Origin: a virus
Direction: 5' to 3' (one strand)
DNA: 64,000 nucleotides
IMG/VR virus record: IMGVR_UViG_3300030108_006260
Coordinates: 157,816 to 221,815 of that record
Below, piece by piece: positions 10,623 through 63,948 of the stretch; the first letter of the stretch is position 1, and every line of letters begins with the position of its first letter. The notes beneath the pieces were generated by a model. The model saw only the letters and a program-made list of their open reading frames with translations, made no database searches and was not told the origin of the DNA. A program made the position numbers and the translations under genes.

Positions 10623-11072
10623 CTAAATAAGACTCCGCCTGCTCAGGAAGTATCTAAAAGAAGATATCTCTCCAGCAGACGAAGTAAGAAGATCTTCCAG
10701 TCCTAGAGGCGTATCACCTCCTCCATGAAATGGAATTTCTGTTAAAATAGCTCGTATGTTACGTACCAGCTTATCCAGCTGACGCTGAAAGAACAACGAA
10801 AAGTCTGGAGAACTATCTCTAAACTCTCCGGAGTATTCTAACATTCGTGTAAGAATGTAGCGGCTCTGATTAACAGGATCTACGTCTGATCCGTAGAAAA
10901 CTGCCTGCTCCGCTATCGGGTCTAGAAGACTGTCAAGTTTTACGTAAAGTTCCCTGTATAACTGGTGGTCCGAGTAGCTAGAGGGACCTGAAGCGAGCCA
11001 GTGAGCTGTCTGGGCCAAAGAAGAAAGATATCTAAGCTCCCAAGCAAGCTGGGATAGAAGAGGTCCTATCAT
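10623..11072 (-). CDS. Dps-like ferritin-fold protein with ferroxidase ligands
   Basis: The 149-residue all-helical protein carries the Dps signature: HW at residues 24-25, Gly29, His36, then LYRELYVKLD, Asp51 and IAE with Glu55. The spacing His24-His36-Asp51-Glu55 (12, 27 and 31 residues from the first His) equals that of ferroxidase ligands His51, His63, Asp78 and Glu82 of E. coli Dps. The ligand equivalent to Asp67 is Arg40 here. The C-terminal segment (DLLT then SSFRYFLSRRSL) resembles the last Dps helix. Dps proteins form 12-mers that oxidise and store iron. Here the gene is embedded in a baseplate operon, overlapping its upstream neighbour by four bases, so the protein may be a virion component or be made late. 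It lacks the Lys-rich N-terminal DNA-binding tail of E. coli Dps. Confidence 0.72.
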   Translation of the reverse strand: MIGPLLSQLAWELRYLSSLAQTAHWLASGPSSYSDHQLYRELYVKLDSLLDPIAEQAVFYGSDVDPVNQSRYILTRMLEYSGEFRDSSPDFSLFFQRQLDKLVRNIRAILTEIPFHGGGDTPLGLEDLLTSSAGEISSFRYFLSRRSLI

Positions 11073-32613: not shown

Positions 32614-34551
32614 TCACGAACCAGTTTTTACAAGGTCCACAACTTCACATACACCACCAGAACACGCTAATGTGTGACTTCCAACCGTATTGTCCGTCTC
32701 CTCGTAAGAGGAAAGCTGAGACCAGTCTATATCTGGCATGCTTTCTACGAGTGAGTTGTAAGTTTCTACGTCTACTTCCTCGTAAGGAGCCTGCTCGTAA
32801 ACGTGGTCCGATTGGGGAAGGAAAGATATGCCAGACACAGTGTCAAAATTATCCCACAGCCACTGTCCTACTTCCATGAAGTCATCGTCCTTATAATAAA
32901 CAGTGCAAGATGGCTTGTGCTCACACCAGTGGTTCTGGTAAATCAACCATAGGTTCAACTGGTCTAGGGCAGATACGCTCTTGACCACCTTAGAAGACTT
33001 GGGGCTTTTTATTGGAAAAGAGAATACAAGAGCACTATCGTTAAATCCATCTTCCTCACAGGGAACACCTACGTCTTGTAGAAAAGTTCCGATTGGATCT
33101 TTCTTATCAATACGAACTCTCCTAATGTAATGAGAAGAGAAGCGTGCGTGAATTCCACTAGAGGAGTTTACTAACTGACTTACTGTGCCACTAGGTTTAA
33201 CTGCGGTAACTGCTACACTGGCATTAATTCCCAACATAGATGCCCACTTAGCATTAGTAGATACTGCATGGTCTCTTAGTCGTTCCAAAAGTGCAGGCAA
33301 GTCTTTGTTGTTTGCGTCTCCTAGAACAGGATGATCCATAATACCTGTGAGAGAAACTCCCAAAAGCCTCTCTTCCTCGGTGTTCTTCGACCATATTTTT
33401 CTAAGGTATCTAAATTTAGTAAGAGTACTTTGCAGAGTACCTAAAGCAGCAGCTACTGTTATCTTGTCCTTAAGTGTCTGCTCGGTGTCCTCGGACCTAA
33501 CAACAACTTCAGACAGGTTACAGAACTGATAAGGTCTAAGTATAATTTCTGAGCAAGGATTTGTGCCGAAGTCGCGGTCAGAGTCGCGTCTTCCATTCTT
33601 AGCAGCCTGCTTCTGAGCAGCGACTCTGCTGAACACGCCACGTTCTCCCGATTTGCTTTCGTAAAGGGATGTCCATTCATTAAGGAACACTCTGAAGTCT
33701 GGCTTCTCTGTGTAGCAAGCGGAGTTGTTAGCCAGTGACCTCTGCTTCTCTTCAATGTACCACTGCCCTGCCTTGGCTCCCCTCATCCTGTCGTCGCTAA
33801 GGTTGCTCAAACTAATAAGAGCAGACCTTCTAACTCCTCCAACTACCACTATTTCTGCTATCTTACATACAAGGTCATGACATTCAAGAGAGGAAAGCTT
33901 TCGACCCGCTGCTTTTTTGAACAGGGACACAGAAAAGTTGAACAACTTTTCTAAGGGCTCAGGACCTGATGACCTTCCTCCAAATGTCTTAAGTCTGGCT
34001 CCTGCCTTTCTGACCTTAGAAAGGTCCCATTGAGGTACCTGACCGTTGTACAACAGGCTTATGAGTGTCTTAAAAGAAGATGCCCATCCTATCCTAGAAT
34101 CAGCAACATGTATAATGGTTTCGGACTGGTAGAACTCTTCTGCTACATCAGGTAGCTTATTAACATATTGTCGTTCTACAGAGAATCCTACGCCTGTTCC
34201 GCACATCAAAATGTACATTATCTCGTCAAAGGCGAGTGGATGGTCGATAGGAAGGTAAGAGCAGTTATAACCAGCTACTGAGTCCCTCTTAAGGGCTGGA
34301 CCAGCAGTCATTAGAGCACGCATACTCGGCATGGTCTCGAAGCTTAGTATTTTAGGAGAAAGGGCTCTGATCTCTTTTTCTAGAGAAGGATTCCTCTCTA
34401 CAAAGAAAGATATGTACCTCTCTACGGTCTCTTCCCACGTCTCCCTACGTTCTTTTTCATCGATCCACCTTGCGTACCTAGATAGGTGAATAAATTGTGA
34501 GTAAGAAGGTGTCCCAGTTGCTGCGAAAAAACCAGTAGGCTCATGTGTCAT
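32614..34551 (-). CDS. nrdJ: B12-dependent class II ribonucleotide reductase (monomeric RTPR type)
   Basis: The protein matches adenosylcobalamin-dependent ribonucleoside-triphosphate reductase of the monomeric RTPR type. From the ATG at 34551 the key cysteines are Cys97 ('YNCSYL'), Cys333 ('NPCSEI'), Cys344 ('QFCNLSE') and the C-terminal pair Cys630/Cys635 ('ACSGGVC'). In Lactobacillus RTPR the equivalents are Cys119, Cys408, Cys419 and Cys731/Cys736, with the same 11- and 5-residue spacings. The reaction reduces NTPs to dNTPs using coenzyme B12 and thioredoxin. At about 645 residues it is shorter than the 739-aa reference. A TTG three codons upstream (34560) is possible, but a GGAG site 9-12 bases before ATG favours 34551. 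The phage thus relies on host cobalamin. The leader is structured. Confidence 0.92.
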   Translation of the reverse strand: MTHEPTGFFAATGTPSYSQFIHLSRYARWIDEKERRETWEETVERYISFFVERNPSLEKEIRALSPKILSFETMPSMRALMTAGPALKRDSVAGYNCSYLPIDHPLAFDEIMYILMCGTGVGFSVERQYVNKLPDVAEEFYQSETIIHVADSRIGWASSFKTLISLLYNGQVPQWDLSKVRKAGARLKTFGGRSSGPEPLEKLFNFSVSLFKKAAGRKLSSLECHDLVCKIAEIVVVGGVRRSALISLSNLSDDRMRGAKAGQWYIEEKQRSLANNSACYTEKPDFRVFLNEWTSLYESKSGERGVFSRVAAQKQAAKNGRRDSDRDFGTNPCSEIILRPYQFCNLSEVVVRSEDTEQTLKDKITVAAALGTLQSTLTKFRYLRKIWSKNTEEERLLGVSLTGIMDHPVLGDANNKDLPALLERLRDHAVSTNAKWASMLGINASVAVTAVKPSGTVSQLVNSSSGIHARFSSHYIRRVRIDKKDPIGTFLQDVGVPCEEDGFNDSALVFSFPIKSPKSSKVVKSVSALDQLNLWLIYQNHWCEHKPSCTVYYKDDDFMEVGQWLWDNFDTVSGISFLPQSDHVYEQAPYEEVDVETYNSLVESMPDIDWSQLSSYEETDNTVGSHTLACSGGVCEVVDLVKTGS

Positions 34552-34567
34552 TTGATACAAGTCTCCA

Positions 34568-41199: not shown

Positions 41200-44100
41200 A
41201 TGAGTTTAAAGGTCAGAATAACTAATAAGACCCGCAGTATAATAGCGGTGAACAAGGTCAAGAGGAAAGTACCGCCTTTAAGTACTACTACTTTTGAAAT
41301 TAGTATATCAGACCTTGACGTACTTAGGCCATTCCTGCTTTCTCATAGGGAAAAGGGCCAAATAGACTTTGATGTTTTTAATGACCCGGGGTCTGTGGAC
41401 AGCAGTGACACTGAACTTGTTACACTAGCGGACATACCTGACGTAATACCGGGAGGTGGAGGATCATCTGACGCATTAGATATATCCTACGATAATACTG
41501 CATCAGGATTAACAGCTACCAACGTAAAGGAAGCCATTGACGAAGTGGTATCCGCAGGGGGCTCCGGAACGGACAACCAGACAGCGTCTGAAGTTCCTTT
41601 CACACCTGCTGGTAACCTGACGTCCACTAATACTCAAGCTGCGTTAGAGGAGCTAGATGCAGAAAAAATAGATGTTGCTCATTTAGGGACAGGAGGTGCA
41701 GCACACGCTAGTGCCACTACCAGCACTGCTGGCTTCATGTCCTCTACGGACAAAGTTAAACTAAATAGCATAGAGTCCGGTGCTGACGTAACAGACACTG
41801 CTAACGTCACGTCAGCCGGAGCGCTCATGCGCTCAGGCGGAACCATGACCGGCAATATTGTCATGTCTCCGTCACAAACAGTAGATGGCAGAGATCTGTC
41901 TGTAGACGGTGCCAAGTTAGATGGAATAGAGCCTGGAGCGGACGTAACAGACGCATCGAATGTCACTCTTGCTGGAGCGCTCATGCGTACTGGCGGTACC
42001 ATGACAGGTGATGTGGTATTTAGCGGGAGTCAAACATTCGACGGTCGTGATGTGTCCGTTGATGGATCCAAGTTAGATGGCATAGAACCAGGAGCCGAAG
42101 TTAACACAGTGGATACTGTGTTCGGACGCACCGGAAATGTAGTTGCAACAGCAGGAGACTACGAAGCAAGCGAGGTTAGCTATGACAACACTACTAGCGG
42201 ACTAACAGCTACTGATGTTAAGGCCGCTATTGATGAGGTAGCAGCAAGTGTAGGAGGGGGAGGAACTGACGACCAAACAGCAGCCGAAGTACCTTTTACA
42301 CCCTCCGGAAATTTATCGTCAACAGATGTACAAGATGCCCTAGAGGAGCTGGACTCTGAGAAGTTATCAACCACCCATGCAGGAACGGGCGGTACTTCCC
42401 ATGCAAATGCCACTACCGGCACTGCTGGCTTCATGTCTAGTGGAGACAAGACTAAGCTAAACAGTATAGAGACAAACGCTGACGTAACGGACACCGCTAA
42501 TGTCACGTCAGCCGGAGCGCTTATGCGCTCTGGCGGCACTATGACAGGCAATATTGTTATGTCAGGCGCCCAGACGGTAGACGGAAGAGACCTGTCTTCG
42601 GACGGTTCCAAGTTAGACGGTATCGAGTCCGGTGCTGACGTAACAGACACTGCTAATGTCACTTCAGCCGGAGCGCTCATGCGCTCAGGCGGAACCATGA
42701 CGGGTGACATTGTATTCAATGCCAGTCAAACGTTTGACGGTAGGGACCTTTCAGTAGACGGGTCCAAGCTAGATGGGATCGAGCCTGGGGCTGAAGTTAA
42801 CACGGTAGATACAGTTCATGGAAGAACTGGTGACATAGTTGCTGTTGCTGGAGATTATTCAGCAGACGAAGTCAGCTATGATAACGCAACGTCAGGACTA
42901 ACAGCCACTGACGTCAAAGCAGCTATTGACGAGTTAGCTGCGAGCGGAGGAGGGGGAGGTACCGATGACCAGACAGCAGCAGAAGTACCATTTACTCCCG
43001 CAGGAAACATAGCAGCAACTGACGTCCAAGATGCTATAGAAGAACTAGACTCTGAGAAGCTATCAGCTACCCACGCAGGAACAGGAGGAGCTGCCCATTC
43101 AAATGCCACTACTGGCACTGCTGGCTTCATGTCCAGTGGGGATAAGACTAAACTAGACGGTATCGAGTCCGGTGCTGACGTAACAGACACTGCTAATGTC
43201 ACTTCAGCCGGAGCGCTCATGCGCTCTGGCGGAACTATGACAGGCAATATTGTCATGTCTGGTTCCGAGACAGTAGATGGACGAGATCTATCTGTGGACG
43301 GTGCTAAACTAGACGGGATAGAGACAAACGCTGACGTAACTGACACCGCTAATGTCACGTCCGCTGGAGCGCTTATGCGCTCTGGCGGAACTATGACAGG
43401 AAACATTGTCATGTCTGGAGCAGAGACCGTAGATGGACGAGATCTATCTGTGGACGGTGCTAAGCTAGACGGGATAGAGTCCGGAGCTGAAGTTAACACA
43501 GTAGACACTGTTCATGGACGAACAGGAGATGTTGTCGCCGTAGCAGGAGACTATGCAGCAAGTGAGATTAGCTACGACAACACCACTAGCGGACTCACAG
43601 CAACAGACGTAAAAGCAGCTATAGATGAGGTTGTAGCAAGTGCAAGTACCGATGACCAGACAGCAGCAGAAGTACCATTTACTCCCGCAGGAAACATAGC
43701 AGCAACTGACGTCCAAGATGCTATAGAAGAACTCGACTCTGAGAAGCTATCGGCTACCCACGAAGGAACAGGAGGGGCGTCACACGCTAATGCCACTACA
43801 GGTACTGCTGGTTTCATGTCTAGCGGAGACAAAACTAAGCTAAACAGCATAGAGTCAGGGGCGGATGTAACGGACACTGCTAATGTTACATCAGCTGGAG
43901 CGCTAATGCGTTCCGGGGGGACCATGACTGGCAATATTGTCATGTCTGGAGCAGAGACCGTAGATGGAAGAGACCTATCGGTCGACGGGTCCAAACTAGA
44001 CGGGATTGAACCTGGAGCTGAGGTCAATACAGTAGACACTGTTTTCGGCCGAACAGGTAATATAATAGCAGTTTCTGGTGATTATGCAGCGAGTGAGGTC

Positions 44101-47100
44101 AGCTACGACAATACTACGAGCGGACTCACAGCCACTGACGTAAAAGAAGCTATTGATGAGTTAGCTGCAAGTGGTGGATCGGGAACTGACGACCAGACAG
44201 CGGCAGAAGTTCCATTTACCCCCGCTGGAAACATATCTGCAACTGACGTACAAGATGCCATAGAAGAGCTGGACACAGAGAAACTAGCAGCTACCCACGA
44301 AGGAACAGGAGGCGCGTCACATGCTAACGCAACTACCGGCACTGCTGGCTTTATGTCCAGTGGGGACAAGACTAAACTAGACGGTATTGAGTCCGGAGCG
44401 GATGTAACAGACACTGCTAATGTCACTTCAGCTGGAGCACTCATGCGCTCAGGCGGCACCATGACGGGTGACATTGTATTCAATGCCAGTCAAACGTTTG
44501 ACGGTAGGGACTTGTCTGTAGATGGCGCAAAACTAGACGGCATAGATCCAGGTGCTGAAGCGAATACAGTAGACACTGTATTCGGAAGGACAGGAGACAT
44601 TGTTGCTGTTGCAGGGGACTATGCAGCGAGCGAGGTTAGCTATGACAACACAACGAGCGGCCTCACAGCCACTGACGTAAAGGCAGCTATCGATGAGGTT
44701 GCTAGCTCTGTAACCGATGATCAGACGGCACTTGAGGTTTCCTTCACTCCGTCCGGAAATATAGCAGCGACAGATGTACAGAACGCTATAGAAGAACTAG
44801 ACTCTGAGAAGCTAGCGGCTACTCACGAAGGAACAGGCGGGGCTTCCCATGCGAATGCTACTACTGGCACTGCTGGCTTCATGTCTAGCGGAGACAAGAC
44901 TAAACTAGATGGCGTAGAGGCGGGAGCGGATGTGACAGACACTGCTAATGTCACGTCATCCGGAGCGCTTATGCGCTCTGGCGGCACCATGACAGGCAAT
45001 ATTGTCATGTCTAGCACAGAGACAGTAGACGGACGAGATCTATCTGTGGACGGTGCCAAGCTAGACGGAATTGAATCAGGGGCAGAGGTAAATACAGTAG
45101 ACACTGTTTTTGGAAGAACAGGAGATGTAATTGCTGTTGCGGGTGACTATGCGGCAGAAGAAGTCAGTTACGACAACACCACGTCTGGTCTTACAGCAAC
45201 CGACGTCAAAGCAGCTATTGACGAGGTAGCTGCTAGCGTAGGAGGGGGTACGGACGACCAAACAGCGGCAGAAGTCCCATTTACTCCTGCGGGGAACATA
45301 GCTGCAACAGATGTCCAAGATGCTATAGAAGAACTAGACTCTGAGAAGCTATCAGCTACCCACGAAGGAACGGGAGGAGCGTCACACGCAAATGCCACTA
45401 CGGGTACTGCTGGTTTCATGTCTGCTACAGACAAAGTTAAGTTGAATGGCATAGAGTCCGGTGCTGACGTAACAGACACTGCTAACGTCACGTCAGCCGG
45501 AGCGCTCATGCGCTCAGGCGGCACCATGACCGGAAATATTGTCATGTCAGGTGCCCAAACTGTAGATGGAAGAGATCTGTCGGTGGATGGCGCCAAGCTA
45601 GACGGAATTGAATCGGGAGCGGAAATAAATACAGTAGACACCGTTCACGGAAGAACAGGTGACGTGGTTGCTGTTGCAGGGGATTACTCTGACTCTGACA
45701 TCAGCGTAGATCCTTCTGGATTTAACGTAATCAGTTCGTCCGCAACTACACAAGCTCTCTATAACGCAGAAAATGACGCACGTCTTCTCGACGCTAGGTC
45801 CTCCGGAGTCAGGTTCTTCGACGGATTTGGATCAACAGGAGGCACTACAATAGCCGTTGGGGCAGGGTCAGGAGTTACATTAGATTTATCAACTGACCCT
45901 GTAAGCTATGCGACTCCTTCGTGGGGGGCCCAAACCCTAACTCCCCCTGCTAGCCAGATTAGTTTCTTGATATGCGATTCGGCAGGCACACTTTCATGGC
46001 TGTCAGCCGAGCCGACACCATCACAACGTAGAACATCCGTACTTATTGGAACCGTAGCTACTCAAGGAACCACCATAACGGCTGCAATCTCGAACGCAAT
46101 GCCCGTTCGTAACTCCATTCAGCAACTCCGAGATATGATGGAGGGTATGGGTAAGGTTAGGTTAGGGACAGGAACTGTCCCTCAACCTGTTACATCGACA
46201 CTGGGATTTACTGTAACCTCAGGTTCTATTCTGGTTCCTGGAATTTCAGTTGCATCAAACCCCAACAACCCTCACTCTTTTGTGTATCCAGGGTCTGCTT
46301 CTCCTGCTTCTTTTCAATATGCCACACCCTCAGGGTCTGACGGTGTAACTAGAACCGCAATAATACCTGACCAATACTGGAACGGTAGTACGTTGGTAAC
46401 GATAGGAGGAAACTCCAACAGGGCAGCAATACATACAATATATTTGTTCCCGTCTAGCAATATACGAGTAGCTAGGCCACAGCAGTTCTACTCTTCTATG
46501 TCAAGGGCACTTAGTGCCTTAGCTACACGCATATACACTACCCCTGCTGGTTATGAAGCTAACGGTTTTATCGTAGGTTACATCATAGCCAGAAGGAACG
46601 CTACAAACCTGGCTTCATCTTCGGATGCTCTATTTGTGTCAACAAACCAGTTTGGAGGAATTGGAGGAGGAACAGCAGGTATTATACAGGGAGTTACTAG
46701 CGTTAATGGTCAGGCGGGACCAGCTGTAACCCTAAACGAGTTTGTATCGGACGTGTTCCGCGTACAGGACAACACGGACACAACAAAAAAGATAGCATTC
46801 AATGCCTCTGCTATAACTACAGGAACAGTCCGTACAATTACGATGCCGGACGCAGACGTAGACCTTGGATCTCTCGGAGGAGGTGGAGGTGTTACCAGCG
46901 TAAACGGTGACTCTGGGCCTGCTGTAATTTTGAATGAATTTGAATCGGATGTATTCCGAGTTCAAGACAACACAGATACCACAAAGAAAATATCTTTTGA
47001 CGCGTCTGCAATAACCACGGGTACTGTACGAACGATTACGATGCCGGATGCTGATGTGGACCTGGGGTCTCTTGGAGGCGGGGGAGGAGGTCCGGAGGAA

Positions 47101-47808
47101 AGTACTGGCGCTAGAGACTTCAGCTCAGCGAACTACTATGCAGGAGCAGCAGGAACTGGTGTAGGAAACGCATCCGGATTTATAGGAAGCGCACTAGTAC
47201 GAATCAACGGAAGCTTTGCCGGATTAGGAAACCAAGTTTTCTTCGGAAATAACTGGTTCTTCATCAACGATGGTGGCTGGTACATCGGGATGAATGAAGA
47301 CAGATTTAAGTTTGGAGTAGGGCAGGCTAGCGATGGTGTGGTCCTTGAAAACTTCGTAAATGCGGAGTTACCTTCTTACAATATTTATGGAAGGCTATTT
47401 CTTGTAACTTTAGCCTACGATGGAACGGATGCACGCGGTTACGTTAATGGAGAACATTTTGTAACACTCACACCCTCAGGTGGATATGACACCAGCTTTG
47501 CATCTGACATGCTTATGCTAGGAAGAAGTAATAACGGAGGAGCAGCGGCTCCTTCGTCTGCCTGTTCCATACTTGGTGCCGGGTATTCCGAGGCCGTAAT
47601 AACGGAGTCAGAAGTTATCGACCATTTTGTAGCGTGTATGGAATCCGGGGCATTCGAAGACCTTCCGACTACAGGATTCGAAAATATGTATTCATTCGAG
47701 GGACTTAGCAGTGCGCCTGCTACCCTTAGTGATGTAGGATCTGCGGCTGACACAGACCTGACCCTGAACGGATCGTTGACTGTGTCCGACTTTACCACCA
47801 GGTGGTGA
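41200..47808 (+). CDS. Giant tail fibre, 2202 aa, seven tandem modules and a lectin-like tip
   Basis: Residues 1-60 are the docking-like domain shared with neighbouring proteins. Residues about 90-1500 are seven tandem modules. Each contains 'SYDN.TSGLTATDVK.AIDE', 'EVPFTPAGN', 'GTGG..HANATTGTAGFMS', 'GALMRSGGTMTGNIV', 'DGRDLSVDG.KLDGI' and 'NTVDTV.GRTG', motifs typical of long trimeric tail fibres (several are fibre/chaperone-family signatures). Two shorter 'GPAV.LNEF.SDVFRVQDN' repeats follow near 1835-1965. The C-terminus (about 1985-2202) is a concanavalin/LamG-like beta sandwich, likely the host-binding tip. No Shine-Dalgarno is seen before the ATG. Confidence 0.85.
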   Translation: MSLKVRITNKTRSIIAVNKVKRKVPPLSTTTFEISISDLDVLRPFLLSHREKGQIDFDVFNDPGSVDSSDTELVTLADIPDVIPGGGGSSDALDISYDNTASGLTATNVKEAIDEVVSAGGSGTDNQTASEVPFTPAGNLTSTNTQAALEELDAEKIDVAHLGTGGAAHASATTSTAGFMSSTDKVKLNSIESGADVTDTANVTSAGALMRSGGTMTGNIVMSPSQTVDGRDLSVDGAKLDGIEPGADVTDASNVTLAGALMRTGGTMTGDVVFSGSQTFDGRDVSVDGSKLDGIEPGAEVNTVDTVFGRTGNVVATAGDYEASEVSYDNTTSGLTATDVKAAIDEVAASVGGGGTDDQTAAEVPFTPSGNLSSTDVQDALEELDSEKLSTTHAGTGGTSHANATTGTAGFMSSGDKTKLNSIETNADVTDTANVTSAGALMRSGGTMTGNIVMSGAQTVDGRDLSSDGSKLDGIESGADVTDTANVTSAGALMRSGGTMTGDIVFNASQTFDGRDLSVDGSKLDGIEPGAEVNTVDTVHGRTGDIVAVAGDYSADEVSYDNATSGLTATDVKAAIDELAASGGGGGTDDQTAAEVPFTPAGNIAATDVQDAIEELDSEKLSATHAGTGGAAHSNATTGTAGFMSSGDKTKLDGIESGADVTDTANVTSAGALMRSGGTMTGNIVMSGSETVDGRDLSVDGAKLDGIETNADVTDTANVTSAGALMRSGGTMTGNIVMSGAETVDGRDLSVDGAKLDGIESGAEVNTVDTVHGRTGDVVAVAGDYAASEISYDNTTSGLTATDVKAAIDEVVASASTDDQTAAEVPFTPAGNIAATDVQDAIEELDSEKLSATHEGTGGASHANATTGTAGFMSSGDKTKLNSIESGADVTDTANVTSAGALMRSGGTMTGNIVMSGAETVDGRDLSVDGSKLDGIEPGAEVNTVDTVFGRTGNIIAVSGDYAASEVSYDNTTSGLTATDVKEAIDELAASGGSGTDDQTAAEVPFTPAGNISATDVQDAIEELDTEKLAATHEGTGGASHANATTGTAGFMSSGDKTKLDGIESGADVTDTANVTSAGALMRSGGTMTGDIVFNASQTFDGRDLSVDGAKLDGIDPGAEANTVDTVFGRTGDIVAVAGDYAASEVSYDNTTSGLTATDVKAAIDEVASSVTDDQTALEVSFTPSGNIAATDVQNAIEELDSEKLAATHEGTGGASHANATTGTAGFMSSGDKTKLDGVEAGADVTDTANVTSSGALMRSGGTMTGNIVMSSTETVDGRDLSVDGAKLDGIESGAEVNTVDTVFGRTGDVIAVAGDYAAEEVSYDNTTSGLTATDVKAAIDEVAASVGGGTDDQTAAEVPFTPAGNIAATDVQDAIEELDSEKLSATHEGTGGASHANATTGTAGFMSATDKVKLNGIESGADVTDTANVTSAGALMRSGGTMTGNIVMSGAQTVDGRDLSVDGAKLDGIESGAEINTVDTVHGRTGDVVAVAGDYSDSDISVDPSGFNVISSSATTQALYNAENDARLLDARSSGVRFFDGFGSTGGTTIAVGAGSGVTLDLSTDPVSYATPSWGAQTLTPPASQISFLICDSAGTLSWLSAEPTPSQRRTSVLIGTVATQGTTITAAISNAMPVRNSIQQLRDMMEGMGKVRLGTGTVPQPVTSTLGFTVTSGSILVPGISVASNPNNPHSFVYPGSASPASFQYATPSGSDGVTRTAIIPDQYWNGSTLVTIGGNSNRAAIHTIYLFPSSNIRVARPQQFYSSMSRALSALATRIYTTPAGYEANGFIVGYIIARRNATNLASSSDALFVSTNQFGGIGGGTAGIIQGVTSVNGQAGPAVTLNEFVSDVFRVQDNTDTTKKIAFNASAITTGTVRTITMPDADVDLGSLGGGGGVTSVNGDSGPAVILNEFESDVFRVQDNTDTTKKISFDASAITTGTVRTITMPDADVDLGSLGGGGGGPEESTGARDFSSANYYAGAAGTGVGNASGFIGSALVRINGSFAGLGNQVFFGNNWFFINDGGWYIGMNEDRFKFGVGQASDGVVLENFVNAELPSYNIYGRLFLVTLAYDGTDARGYVNGEHFVTLTPSGGYDTSFASDMLMLGRSNNGGAAAPSSACSILGAGYSEAVITESEVIDHFVACMESGAFEDLPTTGFENMYSFEGLSSAPATLSDVGSAADTDLTLNGSLTVSDFTTRW
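41485..45700 (+). repeat. Seven long direct-repeat modules in the fibre gene
   Basis: The 'GRTG' motif recurs at about 42124, 42823, 43519, 44048, 44586, 45116 and 45654. The intervals are near 700 bp for the earlier modules and near 530-540 bp for the later ones. Longer modules carry two copies of the 'GALMRSGGTMTG' block, shorter ones one copy, ten copies in all. DNA identity between copies is high: long identical or near-identical stretches at about 42965-43060 and 43655-43750, and about 42690-42750 and 44450-44510. That suggests recent duplication or gene conversion. Confidence 0.9.
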
Positions 47809-56083: not shown

Positions 56084-59000
56084 ATGCTTGACTTTGAATC
56101 GTCATCTTTTGACGAAGAGAACAGCCATCTATTAGACTTAGATAGGCTTATCGAACAGGTAATAGAATCTGGACTAGATCCTAGTGTATTCGACCACGCC
56201 ATTGACATTGAATACGCTAAAAACGTAATAGACTTTGCACTTAATCCTGATTTCTTGGACACTGTTCTATGGGCTAAACAGGCCGAGCAAGCAGTAAGGC
56301 TATTTTCTGAGTATTGTCCCGAGTGTACCGACATGGACTTCTTCAATGATGTCCCTGTTGATGCTGTTATGGGAACATTCAAGTCTAAGGTAGTATTACT
56401 TGAGAACGGTGTCTGCCCAGTATGTTCTAAAAACAAGAAGGAGCTGTTCAAAGAGCTTCCTTTTGAGCTGGTTTCTTGTTTGGGTCAGCGCGCAGGAAAG
56501 ACTGCTCTTACCGGAGGAGTTCTTGCCCCTTATTACGTACACAAATTTCTACAAATACCTAACCCTGCGCGGCACTATGGTCTAATGAAAGGATCTTTCT
56601 TTCAGATGACCTTTGTTGCCGTTACAGCAGGACAGGCTTATGAGTCTGTGTGGATGGCGTTTAAGGGTGCTATCGCAAACAGCCCGTGGTTCCAGAAGTA
56701 CATAGCCAGACTTCATGCAATAGAAAAAGAAAGAAACCTCGAAAAGGGAGACCTCGTAAAGGTCCTTGACACTGGCATCTTGTTTAAAAACAAGATGCTT
56801 TCTTGCAGCTTTGCCGCAGCAGATATGAAATCTCTTCGTGGTAGAACACGTGTATTCTGTGTAAGTGGAGATACTAGTATTGTAACAAATAGTGGTATCG
56901 TTCACGCGAGAGATATATCTTCATTAGAAGATCCCTTGTTCCTTACAAAAGATGGCGGGTACAAAAAAGTCACACGTTCTTTTGAAAGAGAAACTGATAC
57001 ATTACGCATAGTAAGTTCTTGTGGGTATGAACTAACCGGGAGCACGGAACACCCTGTCCTAATCGCAAACCCTGACGCTACGTTACAGTACAAACCGCTC
57101 GGAGAATTGTCTGAGGGGGACGTTCTAGTTATATCGAGAGACCCCCAGCAGATGAGACCTGACGCAGACCCAGGACCACTTCCTGCTCCGCCTAAGAAAG
57201 GTCCACTGGGTCACAACAACAGGAAGTACATACCTACTGATAAGATGACAGCAGACCTTGCGTACCTCCTTGGAATCCTGGCAGCAGAGGGGTACCTTAC
57301 TAAAAAAGTGGTTAGGTGGCACACTTCCGATAAAGATATATTAGACAAGTCCTTAGCTTCTTTTGAGTCTGTTTTTGGTACCCTTCCTAAAGTTATACCG
57401 CATGATTCTCTTGAGGAAAACTGGTCCCCAGGTTGGTATATTGAGGCACAGAGCCCTATTGTATACAACTTCCTGAAGGGTATAGGGCTAAGTGGAAAGT
57501 CCCACGAGAAAACTGTTCCTTGGTCGATATTGAGGAGTAACAGTTCTTGTGTGAGGAGCTTCCTTGCTGGTTACCTAGACGGAGATGGCAACGTTGAGTT
57601 CGATTCTGAAGGAAAAGCCAAGGCTGTTACGGTTCATAGTAAGAGCGAGGACCTTCTTCGAGAAGTTCAGCTACTTCTTCTTTCTCTAGGTATCGTATCC
57701 CATAGGTCAAAATACACTAGGGAGATAAAAGGCAAAGAAGGAACATACTACAAACTACAGATGTTCGGTAAAAATGTAGGACTTTTTAGTCAGAAGGTCG
57801 AGTTGATACCAAGAAAAAGAGGAAGTTCCACTCCATCTGAGTACATAGACACTGACCGTGTTTACCTAGACCTAGGTGAATTACACACAATGTCAGAAGA
57901 AACCAACTTTGCACTATACTACAAGAGAAACTATCAAAACTCTGTCTATGCTTCGACTATAAAAAAGAAATTTTCTGTTCTTCAGGATAGTCACCCTGAT
58001 GTGGCAGGTAGATTGTCTGAGTTCTTTGAGCAGAACCTATTTTTCGATCCAGTAAAGTCGATAGAAGAAACAGGCATTCAGAAAGTGTACGACTGGACCG
58101 TAGAGGATGAGCATAATTTCATAGGAAATGGAATAATACAGCATAACTGCGCAATTGACGAATTGGGCTGGTTCAACTCATCTGATATGAAAAGGGCAAA
58201 TGCAGATGAAACCTACGCTGCTTTATCAAACTCACTGAGAACTATACGCTCTGCTTCAGACCGTCTGTGGGACCAGGGAAACTATAATACTCTCCCAGGA
58301 TACATGGCCAACTTTTCCTCACCCAGCTCTCAGTATGATAAGATTATGAGGCTCCTAAAAGAAGGAGAGCGAGATAAGAGAAAGGTTTGCTTTCACATGG
58401 CGTCTTGGGAGGCGTCACCGCTAATTACTAGAAAGAGTCTTTCTTCCGAAGAACTGAACGATCCAGTAAAGTTTTGGAGAGACTTTGGTGCCGTTCCTCC
58501 TCTTGCCAACAACCCGTTCATAGAATCGGAGAGTGCTATAAAGTCCACACAATCGGCTACTAAGCCTGTGATAAACTGGAGACCTAAATACGTACAGGAC
58601 AAGGTCAATCCTGATATGAGGTACATTGCTGCGGAGCTGGTGGGTAACGTAAAAGACAGGCTAACGCCTCGTCTGATAGCAGTGGATGGCGGAGAGAGGC
58701 AGAACTCCTTCGCTATTGGAATATTCCGAATGGAACCAAAGCCCGATGGAGGATTCCAGATCATACAGGATGCCATTATCGAAGCAAAACCAGAGAAGAT
58801 AGAAAGAACAAACGAGGTCATACCCGTTCACTTTCCTACCATGTTCGACCTTGTACTTAAGCTATCTGACAAATATAAGGGTCTGAACGTTTTAGCGGTT
58901 GTGTACGATAGGTGGCAGTCTACTGGAGAGGTTCAACGCCTCCGTGAGATGAAGGTTAAGGCAGAGAGATACTCTCCAAAAGAGTCAGATTTCAAGATAC

Positions 59001-59380
59001 TTCGTAACATGGTATACAGCGGTGACTTCAAGACACCAAAATGGGAACACAAAGAACTTTCAGACCTGGACATCAGCAACGTAGCTGAGGTCCGTAAAGC
59101 ACCCTATACACACCAAGCTATACAGTTTGCTACAGTAAGATCTGTCGGTAAGAAAATAGTCAAGCCTGAGGTTGGAGAAGATGACTTGTTCCGTGTATGT
59201 GTTCTTGGAGCACATTACCTCATAGACAATCAAAAGGACTTTATCTCTAAGAACTTCGGTGCAAGTAAAGATAGGGGATCTATAGGTACTGTAGCTATGA
59301 AGACGAGCAACAGTACATATTTTGGGGCGCGGTCAAAGACTAACATTGGGTCGGTTAGAGGTAAGTACAAGAAGTTTTAG
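56084..59380 (+). CDS. terL: Large terminase (T4 gp17-type ATPase-nuclease) interrupted by an intein
   Basis: 1098 residues as translated; removing the intein (residues 259-688) leaves 668. The ATPase has Walker A 'GQRAGKT' (134-140) and a Walker B whose strand reads RTRVF-CAIDELGWF after splicing (Asp692, Glu693). A CxxC pair near 78-81 and another at 111-114 may bind zinc. The nuclease half begins with 'LIAVDGGERQNSFAIG' (Asp868), followed by 'VVYDRWQS' and the C-terminal acidic region. It is the motor that moves DNA into the procapsid and cuts concatemers. The start has AGAGG at 10 bases. The gene is followed by a small zinc-ribbon gene and the portal. Confidence 0.95.
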   Translation: MLDFESSSFDEENSHLLDLDRLIEQVIESGLDPSVFDHAIDIEYAKNVIDFALNPDFLDTVLWAKQAEQAVRLFSEYCPECTDMDFFNDVPVDAVMGTFKSKVVLLENGVCPVCSKNKKELFKELPFELVSCLGQRAGKTALTGGVLAPYYVHKFLQIPNPARHYGLMKGSFFQMTFVAVTAGQAYESVWMAFKGAIANSPWFQKYIARLHAIEKERNLEKGDLVKVLDTGILFKNKMLSCSFAAADMKSLRGRTRVFCVSGDTSIVTNSGIVHARDISSLEDPLFLTKDGGYKKVTRSFERETDTLRIVSSCGYELTGSTEHPVLIANPDATLQYKPLGELSEGDVLVISRDPQQMRPDADPGPLPAPPKKGPLGHNNRKYIPTDKMTADLAYLLGILAAEGYLTKKVVRWHTSDKDILDKSLASFESVFGTLPKVIPHDSLEENWSPGWYIEAQSPIVYNFLKGIGLSGKSHEKTVPWSILRSNSSCVRSFLAGYLDGDGNVEFDSEGKAKAVTVHSKSEDLLREVQLLLLSLGIVSHRSKYTREIKGKEGTYYKLQMFGKNVGLFSQKVELIPRKRGSSTPSEYIDTDRVYLDLGELHTMSEETNFALYYKRNYQNSVYASTIKKKFSVLQDSHPDVAGRLSEFFEQNLFFDPVKSIEETGIQKVYDWTVEDEHNFIGNGIIQHNCAIDELGWFNSSDMKRANADETYAALSNSLRTIRSASDRLWDQGNYNTLPGYMANFSSPSSQYDKIMRLLKEGERDKRKVCFHMASWEASPLITRKSLSSEELNDPVKFWRDFGAVPPLANNPFIESESAIKSTQSATKPVINWRPKYVQDKVNPDMRYIAAELVGNVKDRLTPRLIAVDGGERQNSFAIGIFRMEPKPDGGFQIIQDAIIEAKPEKIERTNEVIPVHFPTMFDLVLKLSDKYKGLNVLAVVYDRWQSTGEVQRLREMKVKAERYSPKESDFKILRNMVYSGDFKTPKWEHKELSDLDISNVAEVRKAPYTHQAIQFATVRSVGKKIVKPEVGEDDLFRVCVLGAHYLIDNQKDFISKNFGASKDRGSIGTVAMKTSNSTYFGARSKTNIGSVRGKYKKF
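56858..58147 (+). mobile_element. LAGLIDADG intein inserted in the Walker B strand of the large terminase
   Basis: The 430-residue intein starts at Cys259 ('CVSGDTSIV') and ends '...IIQHN' before Cys689. The block A Cys, the TxxH ('STEHPVL'), the 'VYDWTVEDEHNF' block F and the terminal His-Asn followed by Cys+1 are all present, so splicing should be active. Between them lies a LAGLIDADG endonuclease with motifs 'LAYLLGILAAEGY' (392-404) and 'FLAGYLDGDG' (493-502). It interrupts the strand directly before the catalytic Asp-Glu, a usual place for selfish inteins because deletion must be exact. Confidence 0.95.
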
Positions 59381-60234: not shown

Positions 60235-63200
60235 ATGTCTAGCATTAAACTAAATTACAACAAAATGAAGATCGCATCCCTACGCAGGGCAGCTGTAGGG
60301 GGTAGTAGTTTTGGATTTGGTAATGGTGGAGGATCCGGTGGTAGTGGCGGGTTCTCAGGTCCCTTCAGTTATGGTGGAGGAGGCGGAGGAGGAAGGAACT
60401 CCCACAATAGGTACAACCCTGTATACGATGACCTTTCCGAGGGCACTATTATCGAGCAGTTCATGCCGGTGGACCCTCGTCGCCTGCATAGGATTTGGAG
60501 AAGAATTTATCTTCAGGACCCTGTTGCCGGTCCTGCTGTAGAGCTGTACAAAGACCTTCCTTGGTCTGACTTTGAACTCCTTGGTATTGATGACCCTGCT
60601 GTAGCGCGTTTATACACTGACGCAATGAACGCAATCAATATCAATGACCTTTTGCCTGAACTCTCAGCGGAGTTTCTGACAATGGGAAAGGTTATTGGTC
60701 ATCTTACAATGAATGAATCCAAAGGTCATTGGGATCGATGTATTATACATGATCCTGATTGGATTCGAGTAACTCCTATTCCTATTCCTGGATTCCAGCC
60801 TAAGCTAGACATTATTGCTACTCCTGAAATGAGAGCATGGTCCCACTCTAAAGATCCTAGAGACCTGCAAGCTCAAGAAGAAGTCGAAGAGCTGGTGGAA
60901 ATGATTCGTAGGGGGTTGGACATTCCTCTTCCTACAGAGCAGACGTTCTACATTCCTAGGAGAACCTCCCCCTATGATGTGATAGGTGCATCTGCCTATA
61001 CACGAATCATCATGTTCGTTGCTTATGAGAAGGCCCTCGTAAATGCAACAATCGCGGCTTCTAGAAGAAGAGCATCTCGTATACGCCACATCACGGCTGG
61101 AATCGACGACGTTTGGGAGCCAAGTCCGGACGAGATTAACGACCTATCCAACTTGTTCATGCAAGCGGACGAGGACCCTGTTGGAGCTATTGTTGTGACC
61201 AGAACGGGTGTCAATGTGAACGAAGTGGGAGGTAGCTCTCCACAAGACATTCTTAAGATCTCGGATGAGTGGCAGTTCCTTCTACAAGGTAAACTTAATG
61301 CTCTTGGTGTTAGCGAGGCGTTTCTTACGGGTGAGGCTTGCCTTGTCGGTGACAGTCTAGTTCCGACCTCTAAAGGTCTTGTTGAAATTGGTAGTTTCCG
61401 CAGCAGAGAAGACGGACAGTGGCAGGACCTATCTGAAGAAGTAAGTTCTAGGTACGGTAGTGCCCCCACGTCTAAATGGCTATACAACGGATACAGAGAA
61501 ACCTTCAAGTTAGAGACAAAGTCAGGGCACACACTTCAGAGTACTCCTAATCATCCTGTTCTTGTATTTGATCAAGAATCGGGAGTAGCTGATTGGAAGA
61601 GGACAGACGAATTGTCTCTGGGAGATTTGCTCTGCGTTTCAACCGCTAAGATGGTCAGGACGGAGCCTCTCCCCCTCAATTTGAGTCTACCCTCTGTTCG
61701 AAGTGCTTCCTGCAAAGTTCCTTCTACACCCTCTCACATGAATGCAGACCTAGCCTACTTGCTGGGGTGTGTTGTTGCTGAGGGATCTTCCACTAAACAT
61801 ATGGTTAGTGTGAGCAACTCTTCTCAAGACATACTGTTTAGGTATGAAAGATGCTGGTCATCCGTGTTTGGAATGACAGGGTCCCAATACCCAGTTAGTA
61901 AGGCTGGCGATACAGGTGTTATTAACGGAGTATCTTTTACCGTAAATAACGACTGTTACGACTACAGGGTACATAGCATCATTGCTAGCCAGTGGCTAGA
62001 GGACTTGGGCGCAGCTAACGTAAAGTCTAAGGATAAGAGAATTCCTTGGTCTGTGCTTCAAGCGGATGAGGAATCCCAACTGGCGTTTCTTGGCGCTTAT
62101 TTGGATTGCGATGGATCTATACACCACAACAAGGGTCAGATATCATTCCACTCAAGCAGTAAGAAGCTTCTACGTGACCTACAGGCCTTACTAAACTCAC
62201 ATGGTTACGTTTGTAGGCGTACTAAAAAGTCTGTAGAGCTTACCCGGAGGGACAGTAAGGACCTTTGGGAAAGTCTGAAAAAATACGTGGTAACTAAGTC
62301 TTACCCATCTGATGAGTCCCTCGCTACCAAATCCAGAAACAGGTTTGGCGTACCTAACAACTTCGTCAAGAAAATAATTTCGGAAAGAAAAATCAAGCAC
62401 AATCGTCATGGATCTTACTTCCTTAACGACGAAGGCAAAGAGATTCTCGTTCCTAGTGTAAGAAGCCCATTGAACGACGAGAAAAAGTTCCTTTACGACA
62501 GGTATTCCTCTGGTAACTACGATGAATGGCTTGATAACCTCAAGAAAATAAGCCCAAGTACCCACAAAAAACTTATAGGTCTCCTAGACCTTAGGTATGA
62601 CTTTACTCCCATTGTATCGCTTTCTACGGGAGGTAAGCAGCATGTATATGATATTTCTATGGAAGAAGGACACGAGCCTGCTTTTGTAGCAAACGCGCTT
62701 GTCGTCCACAACACTTACAATACCATGGAACAGCTCATGTCTGTCTTCTTGGAGAAGATCAAGGCGTTCCGTAACTTCTTTGTCAACCAGCTTTTGCTTG
62801 AGAAAATCATTAAGCCACTAGCTGTTAAGCACCACTTCGTCCACCGACGACAAGCGGACCTGGACCACAATGTACGCACTGGTGGAAGAAAAGATCCTGA
62901 GTACATCATACCCTCTATTGTATGGGAAAAAAGTCTCCGTCCTGTAGCTGACCGTGACTATCTAGAAATCCTAGATATGATGGAAAGCAAGGGGATTCCT
63001 ATCACTCTTCGCACGTGGGCAAGTGCTGCTGGCTTCGACGTCGAGGCCGAGACTGAGCAGTTTGTAGACGACATACGTGTTCGTCGAAAGATGGCAGACC
63101 AAAAGAAAAAGATCGTAGAGCAGGCTCCAGAGGCAGCGGGTGGATCTGGTGGTGGCGATGGACTCGGTGGCGACATGGGAGGACTAGGCGGTATAGGTGA

Positions 63201-63948
63201 TGACCTAGGCGGCCTCGGTGGAGATCTTGGCGGCCTCGGTGGCGATATGGGTGGCATGGGAGACCTTGGCGGTGACATGGGAGGCATGGGCGGAGGCGGA
63301 GGAGATGACCTCGGCGGCCTCGAACTACCTCAGGTAGGAGCATCCTTTAAGGAAGCACAAGCAAAGAGGTATGCTCAGGATCAAGAGTTCCTCACTAAAC
63401 TACGTGCCCTACCTTTTTGGGGAAATAAGAAAGAACTCCTAGGTGTAACCTACGATAGAGCAGAGCTTACGGTACGTAGGATTCTAGATCACATGGGGAC
63501 GCGAGAGGCTTCTGTCCTATCCACCCGTGAAGAAAGAAACATCTTAGGTACTAAGAACAAGGTTAGTACTGGCGCACTAAAATTTATTCTTAGTAGAATA
63601 GGTCTAGTCAAGAATGGGAGCTTGAACAAAGACACCGCTATAAAGATCCAAGAAGAACTATCTGCTCGTCTTGGTAGTCATCCTGGTGTACTTGCTAATG
63701 AACTTAGGCAAGTAGCTGTGTGCTTAGCCATGGGTAAGCGAGCTACTATGGAAAGATCCGCAGAAGACTACGAGGAAGAGGCGAGGAAAGCCATCGTAGA
63801 GGCAGACCAACGCCGCAGGAATCTAAATGTAAACTCTGACCTCGTAAACGCCACAATGAAGATGGCGGGAAGTGCAATAAAGGGCGAATCTAACGGAAAT
63901 CGTTTATTAACCGGTTATGTAGAGGACAGTAGCCTACTAAAGGAATAA
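60235..63948 (+). CDS. Portal protein (T4 gp20-type) interrupted by an intein, with Gly-rich segments
   Basis: 1237 residues as translated, 779 after intein removal (intein 369-826). The N-terminus has a Gly-rich stretch (residues about 20-55), then the portal core: 'EGTIIEQFMPVDPRRLHRIW', 'DPVAGPAVELYKDLPWSDFE', 'VALVNATIAASRRRASRIRH'-like crown/stem region and, after the intein, 'TYNTMEQLMSVFLEKIKAFR'. A second insert (969-1032) is a Gly-Asp-Leu-Met repeat (GGLGGDLGGLGGDMGG). A C-terminal extension of about 200 residues follows. The portal is the dodecameric DNA entry ring. Terminase lies two genes upstream. Confidence 0.92.
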   Translation: MSSIKLNYNKMKIASLRRAAVGGSSFGFGNGGGSGGSGGFSGPFSYGGGGGGGRNSHNRYNPVYDDLSEGTIIEQFMPVDPRRLHRIWRRIYLQDPVAGPAVELYKDLPWSDFELLGIDDPAVARLYTDAMNAININDLLPELSAEFLTMGKVIGHLTMNESKGHWDRCIIHDPDWIRVTPIPIPGFQPKLDIIATPEMRAWSHSKDPRDLQAQEEVEELVEMIRRGLDIPLPTEQTFYIPRRTSPYDVIGASAYTRIIMFVAYEKALVNATIAASRRRASRIRHITAGIDDVWEPSPDEINDLSNLFMQADEDPVGAIVVTRTGVNVNEVGGSSPQDILKISDEWQFLLQGKLNALGVSEAFLTGEACLVGDSLVPTSKGLVEIGSFRSREDGQWQDLSEEVSSRYGSAPTSKWLYNGYRETFKLETKSGHTLQSTPNHPVLVFDQESGVADWKRTDELSLGDLLCVSTAKMVRTEPLPLNLSLPSVRSASCKVPSTPSHMNADLAYLLGCVVAEGSSTKHMVSVSNSSQDILFRYERCWSSVFGMTGSQYPVSKAGDTGVINGVSFTVNNDCYDYRVHSIIASQWLEDLGAANVKSKDKRIPWSVLQADEESQLAFLGAYLDCDGSIHHNKGQISFHSSSKKLLRDLQALLNSHGYVCRRTKKSVELTRRDSKDLWESLKKYVVTKSYPSDESLATKSRNRFGVPNNFVKKIISERKIKHNRHGSYFLNDEGKEILVPSVRSPLNDEKKFLYDRYSSGNYDEWLDNLKKISPSTHKKLIGLLDLRYDFTPIVSLSTGGKQHVYDISMEEGHEPAFVANALVVHNTYNTMEQLMSVFLEKIKAFRNFFVNQLLLEKIIKPLAVKHHFVHRRQADLDHNVRTGGRKDPEYIIPSIVWEKSLRPVADRDYLEILDMMESKGIPITLRTWASAAGFDVEAETEQFVDDIRVRRKMADQKKKIVEQAPEAAGGSGGGDGLGGDMGGLGGIGDDLGGLGGDLGGLGGDMGGMGDLGGDMGGMGGGGGDDLGGLELPQVGASFKEAQAKRYAQDQEFLTKLRALPFWGNKKELLGVTYDRAELTVRRILDHMGTREASVLSTREERNILGTKNKVSTGALKFILSRIGLVKNGSLNKDTAIKIQEELSARLGSHPGVLANELRQVAVCLAMGKRATMERSAEDYEEEARKAIVEADQRRRNLNVNSDLVNATMKMAGSAIKGESNGNRLLTGYVEDSSLLKE
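61339..62712 (+). mobile_element. LAGLIDADG intein in the portal protein
   Basis: 458 residues from Cys369 ('CLVGDSLVP') to the terminal His-Asn ('LVVHN') before Thr827, so the +1 residue is Thr. The insertion is in 'LGVSEAFLTGEA|TYNTMEQ', the most conserved part of T4-type portals. LAGLIDADG motifs are 'LAYLLGCVVAEG' (506-517) and 'FLGAYLDCDG' (618-627). Block B is 'STPNHPVL', block F is 'VYDISMEEGHEPAF'. The layout and several segments (M-x-ADLAYLLG; SVFG; F-LG-YLD-DG) are shared with the terminase intein, so both belong to one family. Confidence 0.95.

Follow-up and report, generated by a model that had tools for sequence, protein, structure and literature searches.

We have found that a 149-residue protein encoded by a large tailed phage is a genuine member of the Dps family, that its gene lies between a gene for a baseplate J-like protein and one for a conserved 493-residue protein in all seven phages of one lineage, and that the protein is maintained by purifying selection. 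The residues equivalent to His51, His63, Asp78 and Glu82 of E. coli Dps are kept, and the low-affinity metal site is changed. The explanation that we favour overall, with a probability of about 0.45, is that a protein of the Dps fold was captured once and fixed in the baseplate operon, and that it would be made late, associate with the baseplate and hold one metal at each interface site.

The gene was found in a window of 64,000 nucleotides, the whole stretch of DNA analysed, which belongs to a 240-kb virus record (Table 1). The original prediction gave its coordinates exactly and named its residues correctly (HW, that is His24 followed by W25, then Gly29, His36, LYRELY at positions 38-43 with Arg40 within it, Asp51, and IAE at 53-55, ending in Glu55); the strand, which it left unstated, is minus, the frame reading from 11072 to 10623, and the plus-strand frame there is full of stops. 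The motif H-x11-H-x14-D-x3-E occurs a single time across the six frames of the window. When the protein was compared with PDB sequences by phmmer the best match was a Dps (2.3e-4), as were nearly all others, and residues 12-64 align without gaps to residues 39-91 of E. coli Dps (1f30) at a constant offset of 27. His24, His36, Asp51 and Glu55 thereby fall on His51, His63, Asp78 and Glu82, with the spacing that had been claimed for them, and Arg40 falls on Asp67, also as claimed. PHROG 3636, a phage Dps family annotated as ‘DNA binding protein’, matches at 7.1e-6 (and matches 20/20 family members), and the NCBIfam Dps model matches at 7.5e-4, far below its cut-off. The evidence from the single sequence is thus modest. 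The Pfam ferritin match on which the original prediction was to be checked did not materialize: PF00210 (curated cut-off, 24.5 bits) gives no match to the window protein or in a search of the whole virus record, and matches 11 of 20 relatives at E values up to 0.1, the best being 2e-8.

Profiles give a firmer picture. A search of viral contigs with the window protein by itself found no relative, and a two-sequence profile made from it and its counterpart in LR745208, a 485-kb uncultured phage, led to 24 related viral loci. The phage-family profile (A2) matches solved Dps chains in the PDB at 1.1e-11 over positions 6-142, and on the whole virus record the family profile finds this copy only. 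A profile built from the distant phage relatives alone, the window’s own clade excluded, finds the window frame with an E value of 1.2e-20 among 969 frames and has no match among reversed frames. Part of the conservation of H24 and H36 across the wide family comes from the search patterns themselves, which contained these residues; D51 and E55, absent from those patterns, are also invariant. The AlphaFold2 model of the monomer is the anticipated four-helix bundle (pLDDT 90.6, pTM 0.86), with helices at 2-26, 32-59, 90-112 and 125-148 and, at 66-79, the short BC helix found in Dps. A structure search with this model returned Dps proteins for all of the best 50 PDB matches (TM about 0.7, E about 1e-3), and the best viral matches were phage Dps proteins, some of them inside larger proteins. 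A likeness in four residues arising by chance, which the lack of a PF00210 match might seem to allow, is refuted by the agreement of the sequence, profile and fold results, and we give it a negligible probability. We note that the likeness to bacterial Dps (E. coli Dps, D. radiodurans Dps2, Dlp-1/Dlp-2) extends to near full-length homology, the four-helix bundle with its BC helix, the HW...G...H...D..AE signature and the high-affinity ligands, whereas the window protein is only 12-20% identical to these proteins in structure alignments, its clade has no basic tail, and its gene is in a phage baseplate operon.

At the metal site the likeness to a ferroxidase is only partial. In E. coli Dps the high-affinity site is formed by His51 and His63 with Glu82 of the neighbouring subunit, and the low-affinity site by Lys48 and Asp67 with Asp78 of the neighbouring subunit (PMC9140674). 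H24, H36, D51 and E55 are conserved in 7/7 clade members, as a prediction of conserved ligands would have it, so that the equivalents of all three high-affinity ligands are present in each. The four residues are all among the 36 of 149 positions that are invariant in the clade, which for a random draw would have a probability of about 0.003, to be read as a rough guide. At the low-affinity site D51 is kept, position 21 (the Lys48 equivalent) is Gln in 7/7, and position 40 (the Asp67 equivalent) reads R, G, G, K, K, K and G, never acidic; among 17 distinct sequences from outside the clade, 14 have Glu there, two have Gln and one has Thr. Because of these replacements at the Asp67 and Lys48 positions, the low-affinity half of the centre is altered and the canonical two-site centre not intact, and from the sequence the simplest reading would be that a single-metal site was retained and the second site lost. 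The label ‘ferroxidase’ is therefore apt for the high-affinity ligands and probably not for the centre as a whole. Since the clade is monophyletic, the absence of Asp67 represents one retained loss, not seven independent losses. Variant ferroxidase sites exist within the Dps family (PMC7762939), and the change therefore limits the claim of ferroxidase activity more than that of family membership.

The neighbourhood of the gene is constant and no accident. J and Dps profile searches found six relatives: L008 (392 kb), L009 (164 kb), L034/L043 (424 kb), L036/L041 (388 kb), L037/L040 (32 kb) and L044 (95 kb). With the window these make seven phages, all of which have the order 200-aa, 612-aa and 181-aa proteins, gp25-like protein, J, small protein, Dps, 493-aa protein, 158-aa fibre-like protein and 1693-aa protein, although in some of them further genes separate the fibre gene from that of the 493-aa protein; the small protein of L009 was recognised by reading the frame. 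All five loci found in the J search also carry Dps, and the J-like/Dps-like pair that the original prediction had proposed to look for is present in these related phages. In the tree the Dps proteins of the seven phages group together as a single clade (support 93/95), and a comparison of L036 with L037 gives dN 0.008 and dS 0.25 (dN/dS about 0.03), from which we conclude that the protein is maintained. Relative to the window’s own proteins, the J proteins are 57-67% identical, the 493-aa proteins 56-64% and the fibre-like proteins 73-84%; Dps is 36-43% identical. A scan of genome contigs for J found no prophage.

Table 1. Features of the baseplate neighbourhood of the Dps gene (window positions)
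Feature	Position	Strand	Remarks
Dps-family (mini-ferritin) gene	10623..11072	-	149 aa; H24, H36, D51, E55 retained
Small low-complexity protein, 72 aa	11069..11287	-	4-nt overlaps with J and Dps genes
Baseplate J-like (wedge) protein, 466 aa	11284..12684	-	PF04865 4e-12, phrog_6 7.3e-22
Conserved protein, 493 aa	9135..10616	-	directly downstream of Dps; likely baseplate/tail
gp25-like baseplate wedge candidate, 164 aa	12693..13187	-	weak PHROG wedge matches; conserved directly before J
Tail-collar-fibre-like N-terminal protein, 158 aa	8527..9003	-	PF12571 E 0.0035, below cut-off
Likely fibre or large tail protein, 1693 aa	3436..8517	-	syntenic
Tail/hub protein, 1495 aa	17568..22055	-	peptidase segment at about residues 1131-1237; phrog_14988 peptidase 2.2e-16 and others

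The description of this region as a baseplate operon holds well for J and for the synteny kept in the seven phages, and less well for the gp25-like and fibre labels, which are weak in profile searches. Likewise, the Dps gene was said to be locked in place by overlaps; this is so upstream, through the 72-aa gene and J, but downstream there is a gap of 6 nt before the 493-aa gene, and across the seven phages the genes around Dps lie end to end or share a few bases. A Shine-Dalgarno-like GAGGAG precedes the ATG, this ribosome site lying within the last codons of the 72-aa gene, and a scan for sigma-70 promoters and terminators gave a signal near background. The AlphaFold2 model of the 493-aa protein is poor (pLDDT 48). 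The small upstream protein varies from 68 to 97 aa across the phages and has conserved ends (N-terminal LDF, C-terminal PR..PR or IPPRxVPR) around a variable proline-rich middle, a design that would suit a connector, and it is possible that it acts as one in the baseplate. We considered whether its IPPRxVPR end is conserved merely to hide the Dps ribosome site and rejected the idea, because the codons for IPPRxVPR vary between phages and because two phages start Dps several bases past the stop of the small gene.

Elsewhere in the window, a 2202-aa protein at 41200-47808 (+) has many near-identical repeats (TSAGALMRSGGTMTGNIVMSG...VDGRDLSVDGAKLDGIE) and is likely a fibre; a terminase-like ORF at 56084-59380 (+) contains an intein with a LAGLIDADG endonuclease; a portal-like ORF at 60235-63948 (+) also looks intein-split, by reading only; and a ribonucleotide reductase of the B12-dependent type, with a TTG start and partial Pfam coverage, is encoded at 32614-34560 (-).

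In more distant phages the association with J dissolves. The wider huge-phage Dps proteins (DUF5856/PF19174-like; L010-L031 and LR745208) are of the same family, 23-30% identical to the window protein, and share with it the SY(S/G)DH.L(F/Y) motif and a C-terminal YLL.QR; unlike the window clade they mostly have Glu at the Asp67 position, and they occupy other neighbourhoods or are fused into large proteins. Dps and J lie tens to hundreds of kb apart in these distant relatives, and Dps is absent from two contigs, both of them fragments, whose J is 30% identical. The neighbours of Dps are instead terminase and portal genes (L012, L018), a major capsid gene (antisense beside it in L024, 7944-8381; two genes past a similar-looking capsid gene, identified by reading, on the same strand in L016, 8001-8447) or a SET-domain gene directly upstream (L017 7075-7566, L019 7456-7947, L029 7419-7919 and L004), with a chaperonin (Cpn60) gene after Dps in L019 and L029/L004. 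A Dps domain is found inside a 1024-aa phage protein in L020/L021 (ORF from 7029) and inside a 1382-aa one in L022 (5178-9326), which has an InPase domain (PF18823) too. We also note an N-terminal motif like ARRVALRYxA / MASRVVTRYLRS that recurs in different phage proteins (L010 7893-8426; L012 5034-5660 and 7875-8474) and is possibly a targeting or processing signal. The phiEco32/7-11-type podophages (PHROG 3636; Privateer, SU10, Salmonella phage 7-11, Aeromonas phage 4_4572) also encode Dps. In the two examined, 7-11 and 4_4572, its gene is among nucleotide-metabolism genes and, unlike in the window clade, no acidic ligand is missing from the protein, the Asp67 position being Asp. Because elsewhere Dps is far from J or among nucleotide-metabolism genes, its baseplate position looks derived, and because the two genes are so far apart in distant relatives, that position looks like the outcome of a single capture event at the root of the lineage.

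A structural role at the baseplate is the leading but unproven explanation for these observations. A lineage of large tailed phages would have captured a four-helix protein of the Dps family once and fixed it in the baseplate operon, where it would be made late, together with the wedge proteins. The protein may form the usual two-fold dimer or cage and attach to the baseplate, the disordered protein encoded just upstream perhaps serving as the link, and the metal ion at each interface site would serve mainly for structure or redox buffering and not for a full two-iron ferroxidase reaction. The narrower proposal, that this metalloprotein is a fixed baseplate component, held between J and the 493-aa protein with the small disordered protein as its tether, and that its two-site ferroxidase centre has shrunk to an interface site for a single metal, is one that we hold tentatively and at somewhat below even odds. 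Counting towards a baseplate role are the constancy of gene order in 7/7 phages in spite of the low identity of their Dps proteins, and the reports of Dps from phage particles: mass spectrometry revealed that of phage Privateer in virions purified on CsCl (PMC7881722), and SU10 CDS67 was found by phage proteomics with six peptides (PMC4281155). Phage-encoded Dps, even in virion preparations, is thus already known, and the Dps seen in preparations of other phages could be a cage that was carried along during purification. For the window clade we infer membership of the virion, the metal and any catalysis; operon position by itself is no proof of the first, and faster divergence than that of the neighbouring genes is unusual for a core part of the wedge.

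It is possible instead, though we think it the less probable course, that the protein is a mini-ferritin free in the infected cell, where it would bind up iron or remove peroxide, and that it shares no more than a transcript with the baseplate genes. An intact high-affinity site would fit a plain iron-sequestering protein equally well, the family occurs in several different neighbourhoods in other phages, and DPS-like enzymes noted in Lactobacillus and gut phages have been published as aids against oxidative stress (PMC8008677; PMC6669764); nevertheless, the unvarying place of the gene between J and the 493-aa gene and the alteration of the low-affinity site are not what such a role would lead one to expect. 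The loss of the second site and the rapid divergence might point further, to a purely structural part of the baseplate whose ligands are free of metal or hold a structural metal such as zinc, but this is unlikely given that all four ligand residues are among the invariant positions. The original prediction had also raised an iron-loaded tail component and iron-receptor mimicry. In one form of this, such a component would mimic iron cargo and so dock on siderophore or iron receptors. This Ferrojan-horse idea is discussed in the literature and would suit a neighbourhood of baseplate and fibre genes. Dps, however, does not display its metal, which sits within the cage or at the two-fold interface, and we regard such docking as very unlikely. 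Still less can be said for a Dps that would coat the packaged phage DNA and so protect it, protection being another role that had been suggested: DNA binding has precedent in the family, but the clade proteins are acidic (pI 4.9-6.3 in 7/7, net charge -1 to -11), they have no basic DNA-binding tail, the first helix of the model beginning at residue 2, and the gene is among baseplate and not head genes. Protection of DNA by binding is disfavoured on account of that acidity and the missing tail.

In the literature searched we found neither a ferritin-like baseplate protein nor any Dps that combines a fixed place in a baseplate operon with a changed low-affinity site. The usual interpretation of phage Dps proteins is that they help the host cell under stress, and the matter of metals in phage tails is a live one. 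The presence of Dps between baseplate genes with one iron site changed suggests that an iron-handling fold may have been recruited to serve within the injection machine or next to it, and a Dps that is linked to the baseplate throughout a lineage and has an altered metal site makes this alternative of recruitment directly testable.
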